Below the pieces are notes generated by a model. That model saw only the letters and a program-made list of their open reading frames with translations, ran no database searches and was not told where the DNA came from. A program made the translations under genes and the position numbers. A stretch of DNA of 64,000 bases from Halpernia humi. GTDB taxonomy: Bacteria > Bacteroidota > Bacteroidia > Flavobacteriales > Weeksellaceae. Each line of letters starts with the position of its first letter. Positions within the stretch are counted from its first letter, which is position 1. Below are positions 50,208-57,725 of the stretch, piece after piece. The DNA lies in assembly GCF_900108025.1 (NCBI RefSeq), contig NZ_FNUS01000001.1, positions 806,001 to 870,000 on the forward strand. Direction: 5' to 3'.

Positions 50208-52607
50208 ATGAAAGAATTTGAAGATTTAGACTTTAGCGATATTTTAGACGATGGTTTCAGCATTGTAGCTGAAGAAATTGACGAGCGCGAATTGCCGCCA
50301 AATGATGAAAACCAAACCATTTTTCCCATTTTGCCCGTGCGAAACATGGTTATGTTTCCAAAGGTTGTGATCCCCATTACTGCTGGCCGACAAATTTCTA
50401 AAAATTTATTAGAAACCGCCCAAAGCAATAATGAATTGATTGGAATCATTAGCCAAAAAAATAGCGATATTGACAATCCTGTGCAAAAGGACCTGTACAC
50501 AGTCGGAACAATTGCAAAAATTATTAAAATCATCAAACTTCCAGAAGGCAATATTACTGCTATCACTCGTGGAATTGGAAGATTTAAAATAAAAAATTAT
50601 ACGGCAACAAAACCCTATTTTCAGGCGCAAATTACTAATTTAAAAGACACTAATTCTCGCAACAAAGAAGAATTTGAAGCTTTGATTGATAACATTAAAG
50701 ATTTAGCTTTAAAAATAATTGAAATAGATCCCAATATTCCAAATGCGGCGACTTTTGCAATTAGAAATATGAATCATAATGAGGATTTGCTGAATTTTAT
50801 TTGCACCAATGCCAATTTTGCTTCTTCTGTAAAGCAAGGTTTATTAGAAGAAAAAAATCTTTTGCAACGCGCGCACAAGTGTTATGAATTAATGCACGAA
50901 GATTTCCGAAAATTGGAACTCAAAAATGCAATCCATCAAAAAACAAGTAAAGATTTAGACAAACAGCAAAAAGAATATTTTCTAAATCAGCAAATTCGAA
51001 CGATTCAAGAAGAATTGGGCGGTGGGCCAGAATCTGACGTAGAAGAATTGTTGCTAAAAACCAAAAATACAAAATGGAGCGATGAAGTTGAAAATCATTT
51101 TCAAAAAGAGCTAAACCGTTTACAGCGCCAAAATCCCAATTCGCCAGACTATAATGTACAAAGAAATTATCTTGATTTTTTCACAGATTTACCTTGGGAA
51201 AATTACACTAAAGATGTTTTCGATATTATAAAAGCAGAAAAAGTTTTAGAAAAAGACCATTTCGGTTTAGAAGATATTAAGAAAAGAATTTTAGAACACA
51301 TGGCGGTTCTAAAATTAAAAAATAATATGAAATCGCCAATTTTATGTCTTGTAGGCCCTCCCGGAGTTGGTAAAACATCTCTTGGAAAGTCGATTGCCGA
51401 TGCTTTAGGTAGAAAATACATTCGTCTTTCTTTAGGCGGTTTACACGATGAGAGCGAAATTCGTGGACACCGAAAAACTTACATTGGTGCAATGGCAGGA
51501 AGAATTTTGCAATCTATTAAAAAAGCAGGAACTTCAAATCCGGTTATTGTTTTAGACGAAATAGATAAAATTGGAACTGGTGCGCACGGCGATCCAAGTT
51601 CTGCATTACTAGAAGTTTTAGATCCTGAACAAAACAATAATTTTTATGATAATTTCCTGGAAATGGGTTACGATTTATCTAAAGTAATGTTTATTGCCAC
51701 AGCAAATTCGCTTTCGACGATACAAACGCCGCTTTTAGATAGAATGGAAATCATACAAATTGCGGGTTATACTTTAGAAGAAAAAATTGAAATCGCTAAA
51801 CAGCATTTAATTAAAAAACAACTAAAAGAAAACGGACTGACCGCAAAATCTCTAAAACTTGGAGTTGCAGAATTAAAACACATTATTGATGCACACACAT
51901 CTGAAAGCGGTGTGAGAAGTTTAGAGAAAAAATTAGCCGCTATTTGTCGTTGGGTTGCCTTGCAAACAGCCATGGAAAAGGATTATAATGCAAAAATAAC
52001 AGTTGAAAAAGTAGATGAAATTCTCGGCATTCCTCGTCCTAAAAATTTATCAGAAATTACCGATGTTCCGGGTGTGGTAACAGGCTTAGCATGGACGAGC
52101 GTTGGTGGCGATATCTTATTTATTGAAAGTATTTTGAGCGAAGGCAAAGGAAACTTAACAATGACCGGAAACCTCGGAAATGTAATGAAAGAATCTGCTA
52201 CAATTGCTTTAGAATATATCAAAGCGAAACATGATGAATTGGGAATTTCTTCAGAACAAATACAGAAAAATAACATCCACATTCACGTGCCAGAAGGTGC
52301 CACACCAAAAGACGGTCCTTCGGCAGGAATTGCGATGCTCACGTCAATAGTGTCGAGTCTTAAAAATAAAAAAATAAAATCTCATTTGGCAATGACCGGT
52401 GAAATTACTTTAAGAGGAAAAGTATTGCCAGTTGGCGGTATCAAAGAAAAATTATTAGCAGCAAATCGCGCCGGCATAACAGAAGTAATTCTCTGCGAAG
52501 CCAACCGAAAAGATGTAGAAGAAATTAAAAAAGATTATTTAAAAAATCTAAAAATTAATTACATCGAAAGAATGAGTGAAGTAATAGAGTTAGCCTTAGA
52601 AAAGTAA
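50208..52607 (+). CDS. lon: ATP-dependent protease Lon
   Basis: Cytoplasmic AAA+ serine protease of 799 aa, normal for LonA. The N-terminal LON substrate domain (about 40-235) begins at FPILPVRNMVMFPKVVIPI. Walker A is GPPGVGKT (residues 383-390), Walker B VIVLDEIDKIG. The proteolytic Ser705 in PKDGPSAGIAML and Lys746 in GGIKEKLL form the Ser-Lys dyad. It removes damaged and regulatory proteins. It is monocistronic and followed by a terminator; a palindrome covers its promoter region. Confidence 0.98.
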   Translation: MKEFEDLDFSDILDDGFSIVAEEIDERELPPNDENQTIFPILPVRNMVMFPKVVIPITAGRQISKNLLETAQSNNELIGIISQKNSDIDNPVQKDLYTVGTIAKIIKIIKLPEGNITAITRGIGRFKIKNYTATKPYFQAQITNLKDTNSRNKEEFEALIDNIKDLALKIIEIDPNIPNAATFAIRNMNHNEDLLNFICTNANFASSVKQGLLEEKNLLQRAHKCYELMHEDFRKLELKNAIHQKTSKDLDKQQKEYFLNQQIRTIQEELGGGPESDVEELLLKTKNTKWSDEVENHFQKELNRLQRQNPNSPDYNVQRNYLDFFTDLPWENYTKDVFDIIKAEKVLEKDHFGLEDIKKRILEHMAVLKLKNNMKSPILCLVGPPGVGKTSLGKSIADALGRKYIRLSLGGLHDESEIRGHRKTYIGAMAGRILQSIKKAGTSNPVIVLDEIDKIGTGAHGDPSSALLEVLDPEQNNNFYDNFLEMGYDLSKVMFIATANSLSTIQTPLLDRMEIIQIAGYTLEEKIEIAKQHLIKKQLKENGLTAKSLKLGVAELKHIIDAHTSESGVRSLEKKLAAICRWVALQTAMEKDYNAKITVEKVDEILGIPRPKNLSEITDVPGVVTGLAWTSVGGDILFIESILSEGKGNLTMTGNLGNVMKESATIALEYIKAKHDELGISSEQIQKNNIHIHVPEGATPKDGPSAGIAMLTSIVSSLKNKKIKSHLAMTGEITLRGKVLPVGGIKEKLLAANRAGITEVILCEANRKDVEEIKKDYLKNLKINYIERMSEVIELALEK

Positions 52608-52630
52608 ATTTTTCTTAAAAATTAAATTGA

Positions 52631-52669
52631 AAACCACCGAAAAAAATAATTTTTTGGTGGTTTATTTTT
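52631..52669 (+). terminator. Terminator of lon
   Basis: AAACCACC (52631-52638) pairs with GGTGGTTT (52656-52663), followed by ATTTTT. The A/T-rich inner loop can pair further. Confidence 0.8.
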
Positions 52670-52682
52670 GAAATAAAAAATG

Positions 52683-52690
52683 TACTTTTG
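52683..52690 (+). promoter_or_regulatory. Bacteroidetes -7 promoter box of the thr operon
   Basis: TACTTTTG fits TAnnTTTG and lies 10 bases before the leader peptide ATG, 196 bases before thrA. Confidence 0.6.
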
Positions 52691-52700
52691 ACTTTTAAAA

Positions 52701-52796
52701 ATGGCAGTAAAACAAAACATACGCGAAATTCAAATTACAATTTACTTGGGAATTACTATTTCCACAGAGTGTACTGCTACATTTATTACCCCTTAA
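52701..52796 (+). CDS. Threonine-operon leader peptide
   Basis: A 31-codon frame, MAVKQNIREIQITIYLGIT at its start, that is strongly biased to the end products of the pathway: six Thr (13, 19, 22, 25, 27, 30) and seven Ile (7, 10, 12, 14, 18, 20, 29). It is placed between a -7 box and thrA, exactly as ribosome-mediated attenuators are, and it resembles in principle the enterobacterial thrL leader although it is not homologous. It is followed by a GC-rich hairpin. Starvation for charged Thr- or Ile-tRNA would stall the ribosome on it. Confidence 0.78.
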   Translation: MAVKQNIREIQITIYLGITISTECTATFITP

Positions 52797-52810
52797 GGGG
52801 TTTCATTTTA
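52788..52810 (+). terminator. Putative attenuator hairpin of the thr leader
   Basis: ACCCC-TTAA-GGGGT (52788-52801) followed by TTCATTTT. The stem is short (5 bp) and the leader-peptide stop codon lies in its loop (52794-52796), so a ribosome at the stop would cover it. Confidence 0.55.
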
Positions 52811-52886
52811 AATATAATCCATTCCATTTTTTACTTTTTTTTAAAGTAAAGCACAATTTTATGACTTCATAACTAAAACAATCACG

Positions 52887-55337
52887 ATGAAAACTTTAAA
52901 ATTTGGCGGCACGTCGGTCGCCAATGCAGAAAACATTAAGCGCGTAGTAGATATAATTAAAAATCAAGCAAAGGACGAAAAAACAGTAATAGTAGTTTCT
53001 GCTTTTAGTAAAGTAACAGATTTATTGTCTCTCGCGGCCAAAAAAGCCGCAGTTGCAGACGAAAGTTACAAAGATTTACTAGAAACAATTGAAGCAAAAC
53101 ATTTAGATGCTTTAAAAGAATTACTTCCTGTAGGCGCACAAAGCAGTCCACTAAGCGAAGTTAAAAGACTTATTAATCATCTTGAAACACTATTAGATGG
53201 CTGTTTTCTCTTAAGAGAATTAACACAAAGAACCTCTGATACTATTTTAGGGTTTGGCGAATTATTATCTTCATTTATTATTTCCGAAGCGATAAAACAA
53301 GACAACAAAAACAGCATTTATAAGGACAGTAGAGATTTAATTAAAACAAATAATCAGCACGGAAAAGCAATCGTGAATTTTGAAAAAACCAATAAATTGA
53401 TCACAGATTTTTTTGCCGAAAATAATTATCAGATCACTGTTTTGCCAGGTTTTATTGCGAGATCCGAAGATGGAATAAATACCACTTTAGGACGTGGTGG
53501 TTCAGATTACTCTGCGGCCATTTTTGCAGCTGCTTTAGATGCAGATCAATTAGAAATTTGGACGGACGTAAATGGCATGTTTACAGCGAACCCAAAAATA
53601 GTGAAGCAAGCGCAAGCCATCGAAACATTGTCTTACCAAGAAGCGATGGAACTTTCACATTTTGGGGCAAAAGTTTTGTATCCTCCTACAATTCAGCCAG
53701 TTTTGCAGAAAGGCATTCCAATTATTATCAAAAATACTTTTGAGCCAGAAAATAATGGCTCTTTCATTTCAGATAAAACAAGTAGTAAGCCAAATCCTGT
53801 GAAAGGCATCAGCCACATAGATCATATTACTTTGATTACGCTGGAAGGCTCTGGTATGATTGGGGTTTCTGGTTCTTCTAAAAGATTATTTGAGGTGCTT
53901 TCTCAAGAAAAAGTGAATGTGATTTTTATTACCCAGGCCTCGTCCGAACATTCCATCTGTATCGGTATTCTAAATGAAGATTCAGAAATTGCAGAAAAAG
54001 CGATTAATGATGCTTTTCAGATAGAAATAGCGCAACACAAAATCGAACCTTGCATTGTAGAAAAAGATTTGTGCATTATTGCATTGGTGGGTGAAAACAT
54101 GAAAAACCACCAAGGTTTAAGCGGTAGAATGTTCAGCACTTTAGGGAAAAATAATGTCAACATTAGAGCAATTGCACAAGGCGCGTCTGAGAGAAATATT
54201 TCTGCTGTAATTAAAGAAAAAGATGTGAAAAAAGCACTTAATTCTTTGCACGAAAACTTTTTTGAGGAAGACACCAAACAATTAAACCTTTTTGTAATGG
54301 GCGTTGGCAACGTGGGCAAAATCTTTATCTCACAAATAGCACAGCAAAAAAAATATTTAAAAGAAAATTTTAAAATAAATGTTCGTCTAATTGCAGTTTC
54401 AAATTCCAGAAAAATGTACTTTGACGAAGATGGAATTGACCTAAAAAAATGGAATGATCTTCTAGATGAAAAGGGAGAAAAAGCAGATCATCAAGATTTT
54501 ATTTTAAAAGTTAAAACCTATAATTTACGCAACAGTATTTTTGTGGACATTACTGCCAGTGAAAGTGTTTCTAAATTGTATGAAAGTTTTCTATACCAAA
54601 GTGTGGGCGTTGTAACATGCAATAAAATTGCTTGTGCATCTGAGTATAGCAATTATATAAATTTAAAAAATATTTCGCGTCAGTATAACGCTCCATTTCT
54701 TTATGAAACCAATGTAGGCGCTGGATTGCCAATCATTGATACATTAAAAAATCTAGTTGCTTCGGGTGACAAAGTCAATAAAATACAAGCCGTTTTATCT
54801 GGAAGTTTAAATTTTATCTTCAATAATTTTAATGAAAAAAACTCTTTTCACGACGTAGTAAAAGAAGCCGGAGTTCAAGGTTTTACAGAACCAGATCCCA
54901 AGATTGATTTAAGCGGAATTGATGTAGCTAGAAAAATTTTAATTTTAATTAGAGAAAGTGGCCATAAAATGGATATCGAAGAAATTTCTAACGAATCCTT
55001 TTTGCCAGAAGCCTGTTTAAAAACGGAAGACAATGACAATTTTTTCGCCTCATTAATTGAACATTCAGCACATTTTGAAGCACTTTATAATAATGCTTTG
55101 AGCAAAGATTCTCGCTTAAAATATGTCGCTCAATATGAAAATGGAAAAGCCAGCGTGGGCTTGCAACTTATCCCGAAAGACCATCCTTTCTATAATTTAG
55201 AAGGAAAAGATAATATTGTTTTATTTTTTACAGATCGCTATGTTGATCAGCCTTTGCTTATAAAAGGTGCGGGCGCAGGTGCTTCAGTAACTGCTTCGGG
55301 GATTTTTGCAGACGTAATTAGAATGGGAAATATTTAA
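52887..55337 (+). CDS. thrA: Bifunctional aspartokinase/homoserine dehydrogenase
   Basis: Two-domain enzyme of 816 aa catalysing the first and third steps from aspartate to threonine. The kinase (about 1-300) opens with LKFGGTSVANAENI and has GRGGSDYSAA. Two ACT repeats follow (about 310-460, LEGSGMIGVSGSSKRL), which mediate threonine feedback in other bacteria. The dehydrogenase (about 465-816) starts FVMGVGNVGKIFI and has the catalytic region KIACASEYSNYIN with Lys. It is the first structural gene of thrABC. Confidence 0.97.
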   Translation: MKTLKFGGTSVANAENIKRVVDIIKNQAKDEKTVIVVSAFSKVTDLLSLAAKKAAVADESYKDLLETIEAKHLDALKELLPVGAQSSPLSEVKRLINHLETLLDGCFLLRELTQRTSDTILGFGELLSSFIISEAIKQDNKNSIYKDSRDLIKTNNQHGKAIVNFEKTNKLITDFFAENNYQITVLPGFIARSEDGINTTLGRGGSDYSAAIFAAALDADQLEIWTDVNGMFTANPKIVKQAQAIETLSYQEAMELSHFGAKVLYPPTIQPVLQKGIPIIIKNTFEPENNGSFISDKTSSKPNPVKGISHIDHITLITLEGSGMIGVSGSSKRLFEVLSQEKVNVIFITQASSEHSICIGILNEDSEIAEKAINDAFQIEIAQHKIEPCIVEKDLCIIALVGENMKNHQGLSGRMFSTLGKNNVNIRAIAQGASERNISAVIKEKDVKKALNSLHENFFEEDTKQLNLFVMGVGNVGKIFISQIAQQKKYLKENFKINVRLIAVSNSRKMYFDEDGIDLKKWNDLLDEKGEKADHQDFILKVKTYNLRNSIFVDITASESVSKLYESFLYQSVGVVTCNKIACASEYSNYINLKNISRQYNAPFLYETNVGAGLPIIDTLKNLVASGDKVNKIQAVLSGSLNFIFNNFNEKNSFHDVVKEAGVQGFTEPDPKIDLSGIDVARKILILIRESGHKMDIEEISNESFLPEACLKTEDNDNFFASLIEHSAHFEALYNNALSKDSRLKYVAQYENGKASVGLQLIPKDHPFYNLEGKDNIVLFFTDRYVDQPLLIKGAGAGASVTASGIFADVIRMGNI

Positions 55338-55401
55338 TTTAAGTCATTGATTTTAAGTTAATAATTTATTTAAAAATAAATGATCGATAATAAAAACACT
55401 T

Positions 55402-56334
55402 ATGAACGAAATAAAAATATTTTGCCCCGCCACAATTGCCAATCTTTCTTGTGGATTTGATGTTTTAGGTTTATGTCTAGACACCGCAGGAGATGAAATG
55501 ATTATAAAAAAATCTAACACAAAAGGCGTTCGCATCAATAAAATTGTAGGCGCAGACTTACCTTTAGAAACGGAAAATAATGTGGCCGGCGTTTCCTTAT
55601 TGGCAATGCTAGAGGAAGTAGAAGCGGATTTTGGTTTCGAAATCGAAATTTATAAAAACATTAAAGCCGGAAGCGGCATTGGCAGCAGCGCAGCAAGTTC
55701 TGCAGGCGCCGTTTTCGGGGCTAATGAATTACTGGGGAAACCATTTACAAGAAAAGAACTTATAAAATTTGCCATGCAAGGTGAAAAACTTGCAAGCGGA
55801 AATGCACACGCAGATAATGTCGCGCCGGCTCTTTTAGGCGGTTTCACTTTGGTTAGAAGTTCCAACCCTTTAGATGTTATCCGAATAGAAAGCCCTGAAG
55901 AATTATTTGCAACGGTGATTCATCCCCAAATAGAATTAAAAACTTCCGATGCGCGTTCCGTCTTAAAAAAAACCGTTTCTTTAAAAAGTGCAATTACACA
56001 ATGGGGAAATGTCGGCGGTTTAGTCGCAGGTTTATACACAAAAGATTATGATTTAATCGGACGTTCGCTCCATGATGAAATTATAGAACCAATTAGAAGT
56101 TTACTAATTCCAGGTTTTAATTTAATTAAAAATTCTGCTTTAGAAAACGGTGCTTTAGGCGCAGGAATTTCTGGCTCCGGACCATCTATTTTTTCATTAT
56201 GCCGAGGAAATGAAATCGCACAAAAGATTGCCGCGGGAATGGGGAAAATTTATGATGACTTAGACGTTCCTTATGAAATTCACGTTTCAAAAATAAATCC
56301 AGACGGCATCAAAATCATTAGCACCAATCCATAA
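55402..56334 (+). CDS. thrB: Homoserine kinase
   Basis: GHMP-family kinase of 310 aa phosphorylating homoserine. The ATP loop is AGSGIGSSAASSAGAVFGAN, and the C-terminal GHMP motif GAGISGSGPSIFSL is intact. The start PATIANLSCGFDVLGL is a family hallmark. Located between thrA and thrC with gaps of 64 and 35 bases, consistent with one operon. Confidence 0.96.
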   Translation: MNEIKIFCPATIANLSCGFDVLGLCLDTAGDEMIIKKSNTKGVRINKIVGADLPLETENNVAGVSLLAMLEEVEADFGFEIEIYKNIKAGSGIGSSAASSAGAVFGANELLGKPFTRKELIKFAMQGEKLASGNAHADNVAPALLGGFTLVRSSNPLDVIRIESPEELFATVIHPQIELKTSDARSVLKKTVSLKSAITQWGNVGGLVAGLYTKDYDLIGRSLHDEIIEPIRSLLIPGFNLIKNSALENGALGAGISGSGPSIFSLCRGNEIAQKIAAGMGKIYDDLDVPYEIHVSKINPDGIKIISTNP

Positions 56335-56369
56335 ACTAAAAACGAAAACTTACTTTTTACATTAAATAA

Positions 56370-57662
56370 ATGAAATATTACAGTTTAAATCACAATGCAA
56401 AAAAAGTTAACTTCAAAGACGCTGTAACAGACGGTTTAGCGCCAGATAAAGGCTTGTATTTTCCCGAAGAAATCACAGCATTACCGAAAACTTTTTTTGA
56501 TAATATCGAAAATTTAGATCATAAAGAAATTGCCTTTCAAGTAATTCAGCAATTTGTGGGAGATGAGATTCCAGCGGAAATTTTAAAAGAAATTATCGCC
56601 GAAACCCTATCTTTTGATTTTCCTTTGGCAGAAGTAGAAGAAAATATTTACGCTTTGGAATTATTTCATGGCCCGACGATGGCATTTAAAGATGTCGGCG
56701 CTCGGTTTATGTCGCGTTGTTTGGGCTATTTTAACAAAGACAAAAAAGACAACGAGAACACCGTTTTGGTTGCAACTTCTGGTGATACTGGAGGCGCAGT
56801 TGCCAGCGGATTTTTGGACGTAGAAGGTGTAAAAGTGGTCATTTTATATCCTTCAGGAAAAGTAAGTGATATTCAGGAAAAGCAACTGACCACTTTAGGA
56901 AAAAATATCACGGCACTGGAAGTGGACGGTGTTTTTGATGATTGTCAGGACATGGTGAAGAAAGCCTTTTTAGATGAAGATTTAAACAGTAAAAATTTAA
57001 CTTCGGCCAATTCTATAAACATTGCGCGTTGGCTACCCCAAATGTTCTATTTCTTTTTTGCCTATAAAAATTTGAAAAAACAAAATAAACCGCTTGTGTT
57101 TTCTTGCCCGAGTGGAAATTTTGGAAACATTTGCGCCGGAATTTTAGCCAAAAAATTAGGATTACCAATTAAACATTTTGTGGCTTCTACAAATATTAAT
57201 GATACAGTTCCGCGTTTTTTGGTAAATGGTTTATATGAGCCAAAACCGTCAGAAAGCACGATTTCTAATGCAATGGACGTGGGAAATCCAAGTAATTTTT
57301 GCAGGATTCAAGAAATGTATGATAATGATTTAGAGCAATTAAAAAAAGATTTTTCTTCCTATAGTTTTTCTGATAAAGAAACTTTAGAAACGATGAAAAC
57401 GATTTACAAAGCAAATAACTACATCGCAGATCCGCATGGCGCAGTGGGTTTTTTAGGTTTAAAAAAAGAATTAGAAAACCATCCAAATGCGCTAGGAATT
57501 TTTTTAGAAACAGCGCATCCCATTAAATTTTTAGACATTGTAGAACCCGCTTTAAATATAAAATTACCTATTCCAAAGCAAATAGAAAGCGTTTTAGGAA
57601 AAGAAAAGAAAAGTGTAAAAATAAAAACTTATGCTGATCTAAAATCATATTTAACTTATTGA
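56370..57662 (+). CDS. thrC: Threonine synthase
   Basis: PLP enzyme of 430 aa making threonine from O-phosphohomoserine. The PLP-binding Lys is in FHGPTMAFKDVGARFM, and the phosphate-binding Ser/Gly loop in VATSGDTGGAVASGFL. The N-terminal threonine-synthase domain YYSLNHNAKKVNFKDAVTDG is present. Last gene of the thr operon; no clear terminator is visible in the 63 bases before the next promoter. Confidence 0.96.
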   Translation: MKYYSLNHNAKKVNFKDAVTDGLAPDKGLYFPEEITALPKTFFDNIENLDHKEIAFQVIQQFVGDEIPAEILKEIIAETLSFDFPLAEVEENIYALELFHGPTMAFKDVGARFMSRCLGYFNKDKKDNENTVLVATSGDTGGAVASGFLDVEGVKVVILYPSGKVSDIQEKQLTTLGKNITALEVDGVFDDCQDMVKKAFLDEDLNSKNLTSANSINIARWLPQMFYFFFAYKNLKKQNKPLVFSCPSGNFGNICAGILAKKLGLPIKHFVASTNINDTVPRFLVNGLYEPKPSESTISNAMDVGNPSNFCRIQEMYDNDLEQLKKDFSSYSFSDKETLETMKTIYKANNYIADPHGAVGFLGLKKELENHPNALGIFLETAHPIKFLDIVEPALNIKLPIPKQIESVLGKEKKSVKIKTYADLKSYLTY

Positions 57663-57725
57663 AAGTAAATCTTTTAAGTTAGATATAATTTTAAAAATTA
57701 TAGAATAATTTTCGCAATAAAAGTA

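Follow-up and report, generated by a model that had tools for sequence, protein, structure and literature searches.

A candidate threonine-sensing leader-peptide element of Bacteroidota, lacking a canonical intrinsic terminator, in a thrABC cassette that appears to have been horizontally acquired

In a 64,000-nucleotide stretch of the Halpernia humi genome (hereafter the window), a short open reading frame (ORF) with many threonine and isoleucine codons precedes the threonine biosynthesis genes thrA, thrB, and thrC. The features that we assign to this locus are the following:

52671-57718, + strand: thr cassette, apparently acquired, approximate extent from the lon terminator to the promoter region of an AI-2E-type gene (edges set by short matches)
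52683-52690, + strand: -7 box TACTTTTG of a presumed promoter (sequence inspection)
52701-52796, + strand: leader peptide ORF, 31 codons with 6 Thr and 7 Ile, stop codon TAA at 52794-52796 (ORF reading)
52788-52801, + strand: hairpin P1, ACCCC-TTAA-GGGGT, covering the last Thr codon and the Pro codon (inspection; folding z -2.0)
52802-52828, + strand: spacer, unstructured and without G (folding z 0.1)
52810-52820, + strand: conserved block AAATATAATCC (pattern and alignment)
52829-52851, + strand: second hairpin, P3, which in the longest fold begins 28 nt past P1 (folding z -2.7)
52887-55337, + strand: thrA, fused aspartokinase-homoserine dehydrogenase (ORF, Pfam domains)
55402-56334, + strand: thrB, homoserine kinase of the GHMP type (ORF, Pfam domains)
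56370-57662, + strand: thrC, threonine synthase (ORF, Pfam domains)

A reading made from the sequence alone had described most of this arrangement and had proposed that the lineage controls threonine synthesis on the principle of the enterobacterial thrL attenuator. Its account of the box, for which we take TAnnTTTG to be the consensus, of the ATG 10 nt 3' of the box end at 52701, of the 31 codons (translated, MAVKQNIREIQITIYLGITISTECTATFITP), and of the 6 Thr and 7 Ile agrees with the sequence, and the Pfam domains agree with thrA, thrB, and thrC starting downstream at 52887, 55402, and 56370. The hairpin is also present, but rather than following the ORF it overlaps the last two codons, and the leader stop codon supplies three of the four loop bases of P1. 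The amino acid composition of the leader was compared with chance. Among 139 window ORFs of 25-40 codons that start with ATG, the leader is the only one to reach its combined Thr and Ile share, and the only one to reach its Thr share. Four shuffled windows (952 ORFs) gave no match to the combined share and two to the Thr share; 4000 shuffles of the intergenic region (1766 ORFs) gave none and 14.

We examined the regions upstream of thrA in three sets of relatives. A Flavobacterium-type set holds 80 ThrA loci from named genomes, the best 80 out of 339 retrieved by searching with window ThrA peptides; as best matches they lean to close relatives, and the label follows most record titles, with L060, L069, and L070 carrying other labels. 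A family set holds 29 loci of the window's own family, taken as the best matches and not as a random sample, with the window itself (L085) left out. An order-level set of 46 loci was chosen for diversity and comprises 32 from family f3 (a sister family), 3 from f16, and 11 more from the own family f1. As a rule for the leader module we required an ORF 12-60 codons long that stops at a hairpin of the CCC..GGG type, with at least four Thr plus Ile in the last 14 residues and at least two Thr. The module was found at 80 of 80 Flavobacterium-type, 27 of 29 family, and 23 of 46 order-level loci, the last comprising 22 of the 32 from f3, none of the 3 from f16, and 1 of the 11 further own-family loci; a sequence model (below) regains 5 of the 23 order-level loci that the rule leaves out. 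The sequence-only reading had looked to such upstream regions for a decision, and there the conserved frame and Thr cluster occur at 130 of 155 loci, compared with a single one of 1550 sequences made by dinucleotide shuffling of these regions (1/800 Flavobacterium-type, 0/290 family, 0/460 order-level).

The residue that is conserved is chiefly threonine. Flavobacterium-type peptides mostly end in TTTTTTP-stop or TTTPLG-stop, many family peptides in ATTTTTTP or similar, and others in TTTPLG, ITTLWG, IITPFGV, and alike. Over the ten residues just ahead of the P1-encoded ones, Thr accounts for 74, 57, and 42% and Ile for 8, 18, and 18% in the three sets, so that Ile is not the main residue of control; the prediction of a Thr-sensing leader peptide, with Ile secondary, is well supported by these comparisons. 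The promoter-type box is kept as well. Counted from its end to the leader ATG, the gap measures 6-11 nt at 79 of 80 Flavobacterium-type and 9-12 nt at 26 of 27 family loci; among order-level loci, 16 of 24 have a TAnnTTTG-type box 4-30 nt ahead of the ATG. Given how near the box is to the ATG in the Flavobacterium-type and family loci, the transcript probably starts only a few bases before the ATG.

The codon changes among relatives suggest that the leader is translated. Single-base codon differences between close relatives number 825, 750, and 1536 at positions 1, 2, and 3, and the synonymous share of codon differences is 41% versus 29% expected (50% versus 26% in the family set); the compared pairs are not independent, so these figures are descriptive. 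By this measure the short leader ORF is probably translated, and many of its codons specify the end product of the operon. The claim that it offers Thr codons ahead of thrABC stands, and the frame is kept in many relatives; the leader is present as well in two families outside the order.

A sequence-only model built from 23 sequences, the window among them, matched 17 of 37 loci outside the building set at E<0.01 in the expected place, and six of its matches (L086, L155, L161, L163, L168, L171) were missed by the rule. Outside the order, a looser frame-based test was positive at 6 of 30 loci, namely L262-L264, three of the four loci of family f18 from the same class, and L273-L275, three of the four loci of family f35 from another class. 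The model found the same six, five at E<0.001 and the sixth at 0.027; a further match below 0.001 lies off the expected place (in L274, E 6.7e-4). The L273-L275 family, in another class of the phylum, has the same leader design with ThrA proteins 51-54% identical. In the genomes of 40 relatives all five model matches below 1e-6 lie directly upstream of thrA; the many weaker matches are probably mostly due to chance. A pattern combining P1 and the conserved block gave 8 matches in 12 genomes, one each in 8 genomes and all adjoining thrA, while its reversed control gave one match in the 12; the pattern has no match in the window's own genome, whose block reads AAATAT. A pattern for a Thr run before the hairpin proved too strict, matching in 3 of 12 genomes, always at thrA places. 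At the gathering score, Rfam families (T-box included) have no match in the window and none in 9 relatives, and Rfam Thr_leader has no match in 52600-52950 even with E up to 10.

Across 23 aligned diverse sequences, two stretches downstream of the leader start are invariant, ACCC in P1 and ATA in the CATAT block, and all 80 Flavobacterium-type loci have one P1-type hairpin each. The block reads ACATATAATCC in most Flavobacterium-type loci, and a loose block pattern, applied without a chance control, is found at 80 of 80 Flavobacterium-type, 26 of 27 family, and 17 of 24 order-level loci. It lies at position 10-13 after P1 in all 80 Flavobacterium-type loci and at position 10 in 25 of 27 family loci. 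We compared the folding of each sequence with 100 shuffles of the same bases, using every fourth Flavobacterium-type locus (20 of 80). For P1 the mean z is -2.0 in the window, -1.6 in the Flavobacterium-type loci, -2.6 in the family (27), and -0.92 in the order-level loci (24), which are only weakly above shuffles, 5 of 24 ranking at or below 5 of 100. For the P3 region the corresponding values are -2.7, -2.3, -3.1, and -1.5. A hairpin follows P1 in 37 of 43 representatives, starting at position 29-33 in 24 of those, and its sequence differs between lineages; support for P3 comes from per-sequence folding and position rather than from covariation. RNAalifold on MAFFT alignments returned P1 alone in one run and no pair in another, a poor yield that is probably due to the varying length of the P1 loop.

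The spacer between the two hairpins has no fold beyond shuffles (mean z 0.1 to 0.5 over the window and the three sets). In the 28 nt after P1, G makes up 0, 5, 8, and 10% and C 18, 17, 25, and 20% in the window, Flavobacterium-type, family, and order-level loci, respectively, compared with 17% G and 17% C in the whole window. For a Rho-dependent leader switch one would expect RNA after the ORF that is C-rich, G-poor, and unstructured; this spacer is G-poor and unstructured, yet rich in A/T instead of C. The distance from P1 to thrA has medians of 80-104 nt by set and a maximum of 263 nt. It exceeds 130 nt in 31 of 80 Flavobacterium-type loci, where the added sequence sits after P3, which argues for a decision made upstream and against masking of the thrA start. 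Among L005-L084, several of the extra stretches between P3 and thrA carry a CAGTTTTCAGTTTCAGTTCACAGTT-like sequence resembling a dispersed repeat.

In the classical attenuation device, an intrinsic terminator is paired with a competing antiterminator. We searched for the terminator from 25 nt before P1 to thrA in 132 leaders (the window, 80 Flavobacterium-type, 27 family, and 24 order-level), requiring a hairpin more stable than -9 kcal/mol and, 3' of it, a stretch of 7 bases with 5 or more T. No leader passes this strict rule (0/1, 0/80, 0/27, 0/24), and with a lenient hairpin cut-off of -5 kcal/mol 8 of 132 pass (window 0, Flavobacterium-type 4, family 3, order-level 1). The T-rich tract that the sequence-only reading had placed after the hairpin is weak, with 6 T in its best 8-base stretch; a loose consensus scan calls the window P1 with its tail TTCATTTTAA terminator-like, and a stricter scan does not call it. 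Of the 80 Flavobacterium-type loci, 57 have 5 T and 8 have 6 T in the best 8-base tail, and P1 copies outside the order have few T after the hairpin.

Duplexfold of the ORF against the spacer or the second hairpin gave long interior loops without readable pairing and was set aside. In 32 representatives the contiguous helix between ORF and spacer has a mean of -9.9, versus -9.0 (sd 0.30) with ORFs swapped between species, and 0 of 500 such swaps are as low as the real helix, in a comparison where genome composition was not matched. Pairing of the ORF with the 5' arm of P3 is not above dinucleotide shuffles (mean z -0.43, with 5 of 37 ranking at or below 5 of 100). Because of the unmatched composition in the swap test and the negative result for the P3 arm, we claim no antiterminator, and the earlier suggestion that the element works mechanically by the thrL principle is not upheld. 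As the tail of a possible mini-hairpin ahead of P3 we considered a T tract that lies in P3's 5' arm; it is visible by eye in some loci and absent from the copies outside the order, and the idea was dropped.

Terminators of the textbook kind do occur in the family. Six thr leaders without P1 (L184-L187, L191, L192), from four other genera, pass the strict rule with hairpins of -16 to -21 kcal/mol; having been picked for their terminators, they demonstrate that the rule is able to detect terminators in this family and say nothing of frequency. They precede the same operon as the window type, but have a T-tailed hairpin between the ORF and thrA and, by the rule, no P1-type hairpin at the ORF end. 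Five of the six have a short Thr/Ile-rich ORF upstream of thrA, with none listed for L187. Two thr leader designs thus coexist in one family. Elsewhere, a Thr-rich ORF and a strong hairpin occur together at L179, and outside the order the rule calls a strong terminator at 6 of 30 loci (L266, L269, L271, L283-L285), two of which (L266 and L271) also have a Thr/Ile ORF. The short His-run ORFs of L254 and L235 (MKNLNLIHHHHHLI, MSIQLMHHHHHFHVQAGR) each precede a strong T-tailed hairpin and are presumably his-operon leaders; the other loci that were scanned for His-codon runs gave no short ORF under the rule.

The thr cassette itself appears to be a newcomer in this genome. In a sister species (G001), lon and the AI-2E-type transporter gene lie 102 bp apart with no thr cassette between them, and the -7 box, the leader, and thrABC all fall within the window's extra 5 kb. 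The sister genome has no ThrA match at 1e-100, and ThrC at 1e-20 has no match in the sister species or in 4 other genomes of the family. With Flavobacterium-type proteins, the window's ThrA shares up to 79% identity (70-79% for genus g35), and with those of its own family 44-54%. Lon, encoded next to the cassette, shows the opposite: it is 89% identical to that of the sister species and, among 23 other family genomes, 73-82% in 17 and 57-64% in 6. One g35 genome (G297) has a Lon of 59% and a ThrA of 77% identity to the window proteins. A tree built from 43 ThrA sequences places the window's protein beside 13 Flavobacterium-type rows (99/96), within a clade of 17 rows (100/100) and apart from all 13 own-family rows. 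G+C content gives no sign of a foreign origin of the cassette. From these comparisons, the window's whole thr unit seems to have come by horizontal transfer from a Flavobacterium-like donor, and given that the box, leader, and thrABC all lie in the extra segment, the element would have come with, or into, a foreign operon. The statement that this lineage controls threonine synthesis in this way hence needs a caveat: the leader is indeed present in relatives, but in this species the operon was apparently acquired horizontally. Two contigs labelled Klebsiella pneumoniae (L069) and Lentimicrobium (L060) carry a Flavobacterium-type ThrA and are probably mislabelled or contaminated bins.

The element shares with enterobacterial thrL, which we take to be represented by Rfam Thr_leader (RF00506), a short ORF with Thr and some Ile codons before a thrABC operon with a fused thrA, and it presumably reads charged tRNA-Thr through ribosome position as thrL does. 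It differs in having no Rfam match, no strong intrinsic terminator, Thr codons that abut a hairpin holding the stop codon, and a box 10 nt before the ATG, and we know of no description of a conserved block and second hairpin for thrL. In switches of the tnaC and mgtL type, a ribosome stalled on a short ORF decides the access of Rho to the transcript. These enterobacterial leader-peptide switches are Rho-dependent and need no intrinsic terminator; a role of Rho at the thr leader would be a hypothesis only. A comparative study of attenuators by Lopatovskaya et al. in 2010, cited in PMC4833913, may cover this phylum. Among the matches listed in our literature search, no title or abstract opening describes a Bacteroidota thr leader. 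A 2021 study of Flavobacterium psychrophilum gives strong clues for leader-peptide attenuation before amino-acid operons, with conserved 5' elements upstream of pheA and hisG, among others, and also reports elements that have no Rfam matches (PMC9723704); its main text does not mention thrA or threonine, and its supplementary list may include a thr locus. For Bacteroides thetaiotaomicron, of the same phylum, short ORFs in long 5' UTRs are reported with a hypothetical gene as the named example (PMC7366714), in a main text that likewise does not mention thrA or threonine. Leader-peptide attenuation in flavobacteria is thus already known, and the P1-type form is, as far as we could look, not described.

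We propose that the window carries a Thr-sensing leader-peptide control element of Bacteroidota that lacks a canonical intrinsic terminator and lies in a horizontally acquired thrABC cassette; on the basis of comparative sequence analysis, we put the probability of this reading at about two in three. Given the conserved Thr cluster abutting P1, sensing of threonine by ribosome position is the simplest interpretation, and we regard such sensing as highly probable for the element family as a whole and less so for the window copy. When charged tRNA-Thr is scarce, the ribosome would stall with a Thr codon in its A site next to P1, keeping P1 open and allowing thrABC to be expressed. When threonine is plentiful, the ribosome would reach the stop codon and release, P1 would fold, and transcription might then stop or pause at or beyond the conserved block, most likely with the help of Rho or a pausing factor, the least certain step. 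Since neither P1 nor P3 is terminator-like, we favor termination or pausing with a protein factor, with mRNA protection as the main alternative, and Rho would be the obvious candidate because the spacer is G-poor and unstructured. More tentatively, the element may represent an unnamed, widespread Bacteroidota threonine leader class in which the stalled ribosome itself holds open the stop-enclosing hairpin and no intrinsic terminator is used, with output through Rho or through a programmed RNA polymerase pause at the CATAT block, some 10 nt past that hairpin, and with P3 about one ribosome-to-polymerase length (roughly 29 nt) downstream. We think this specific version possible, at odds clearly below even.

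Several other interpretations deserve consideration. P1 or P3 could be a weak, phylum-adapted intrinsic terminator relieved by a stall at the Thr codons, as in a classical attenuator; the loose call of the window P1 with its 6-T tail and the 5 or 6 T in the tails of many Flavobacterium-type loci speak for this, but the scarcity of T after P1 in copies outside the order and the outcome of the terminator rules (0 of 132 strict, 8 lenient, all six conventional leaders chosen for it passing) speak against it. A genome with a P1-type thr leader (L091 in G055) also has, by eye, a strong T-tailed hairpin after the His-run ORF of L254, which is again at odds with a weak phylum-adapted form, and overall we judge it unlikely. 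Slightly less likely still is control of mRNA stability or translation, in which the stalled ribosome would protect the transcript or open the thrA start without premature termination. Ribosome-stall-dependent mRNA protection is known in other systems and would fit a leader with no terminator by the strict rule, but P1 lies far from thrA, with added sequence between them in many loci, and no conserved pairing with the thrA start was seen by eye in the folds that we looked at.

The leader might also be a decaying remnant of the donor's element whose regulation has been lost in this species. Although the window's ThrA is nested in the Flavobacterium clade, its leader has no two Thr in a row, versus Thr runs of 3-10 in the 80 Flavobacterium-type leaders, and 4 Thr among its last 12 residues versus 5-10; being Thr-poorer than each of the 80, the window copy could be decaying, and the end branch of the window's ThrA (0.33) is longer than those of its tree neighbors. 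Yet the window copy keeps an intact ORF, P1, block, and P3 as well as the box spacing, and two divergent leaders from the genus Flavobacterium (L149, L150) also end in a mixed Thr/Ile cluster, so that we hold decay to be improbable, on a par with the weak intrinsic terminator. That the ORF arose by chance beside a transcription or binding signal and has no regulatory translation is very improbable: short ORFs are expected in AT-rich DNA and Ile codons are common by composition, but the presence of the module at 130 loci against a single shuffle and the codon changes, which resemble those of a translated ORF, are hard to reconcile with chance.

Attenuation in response to amino acids is textbook biology built on enterobacteria. 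If our reading is true, the thr leader described here would represent a second route from ribosome position to gene control, one in which sensing is kept and the textbook terminator is missing. The leader type is common in Flavobacteriales and is also seen beyond that order, in two families of which one belongs to another class. The element is small, with one copy per genome where the P1 and block pattern matched, and in H. humi this candidate regulator sits inside an operon that seems to have moved by horizontal transfer.
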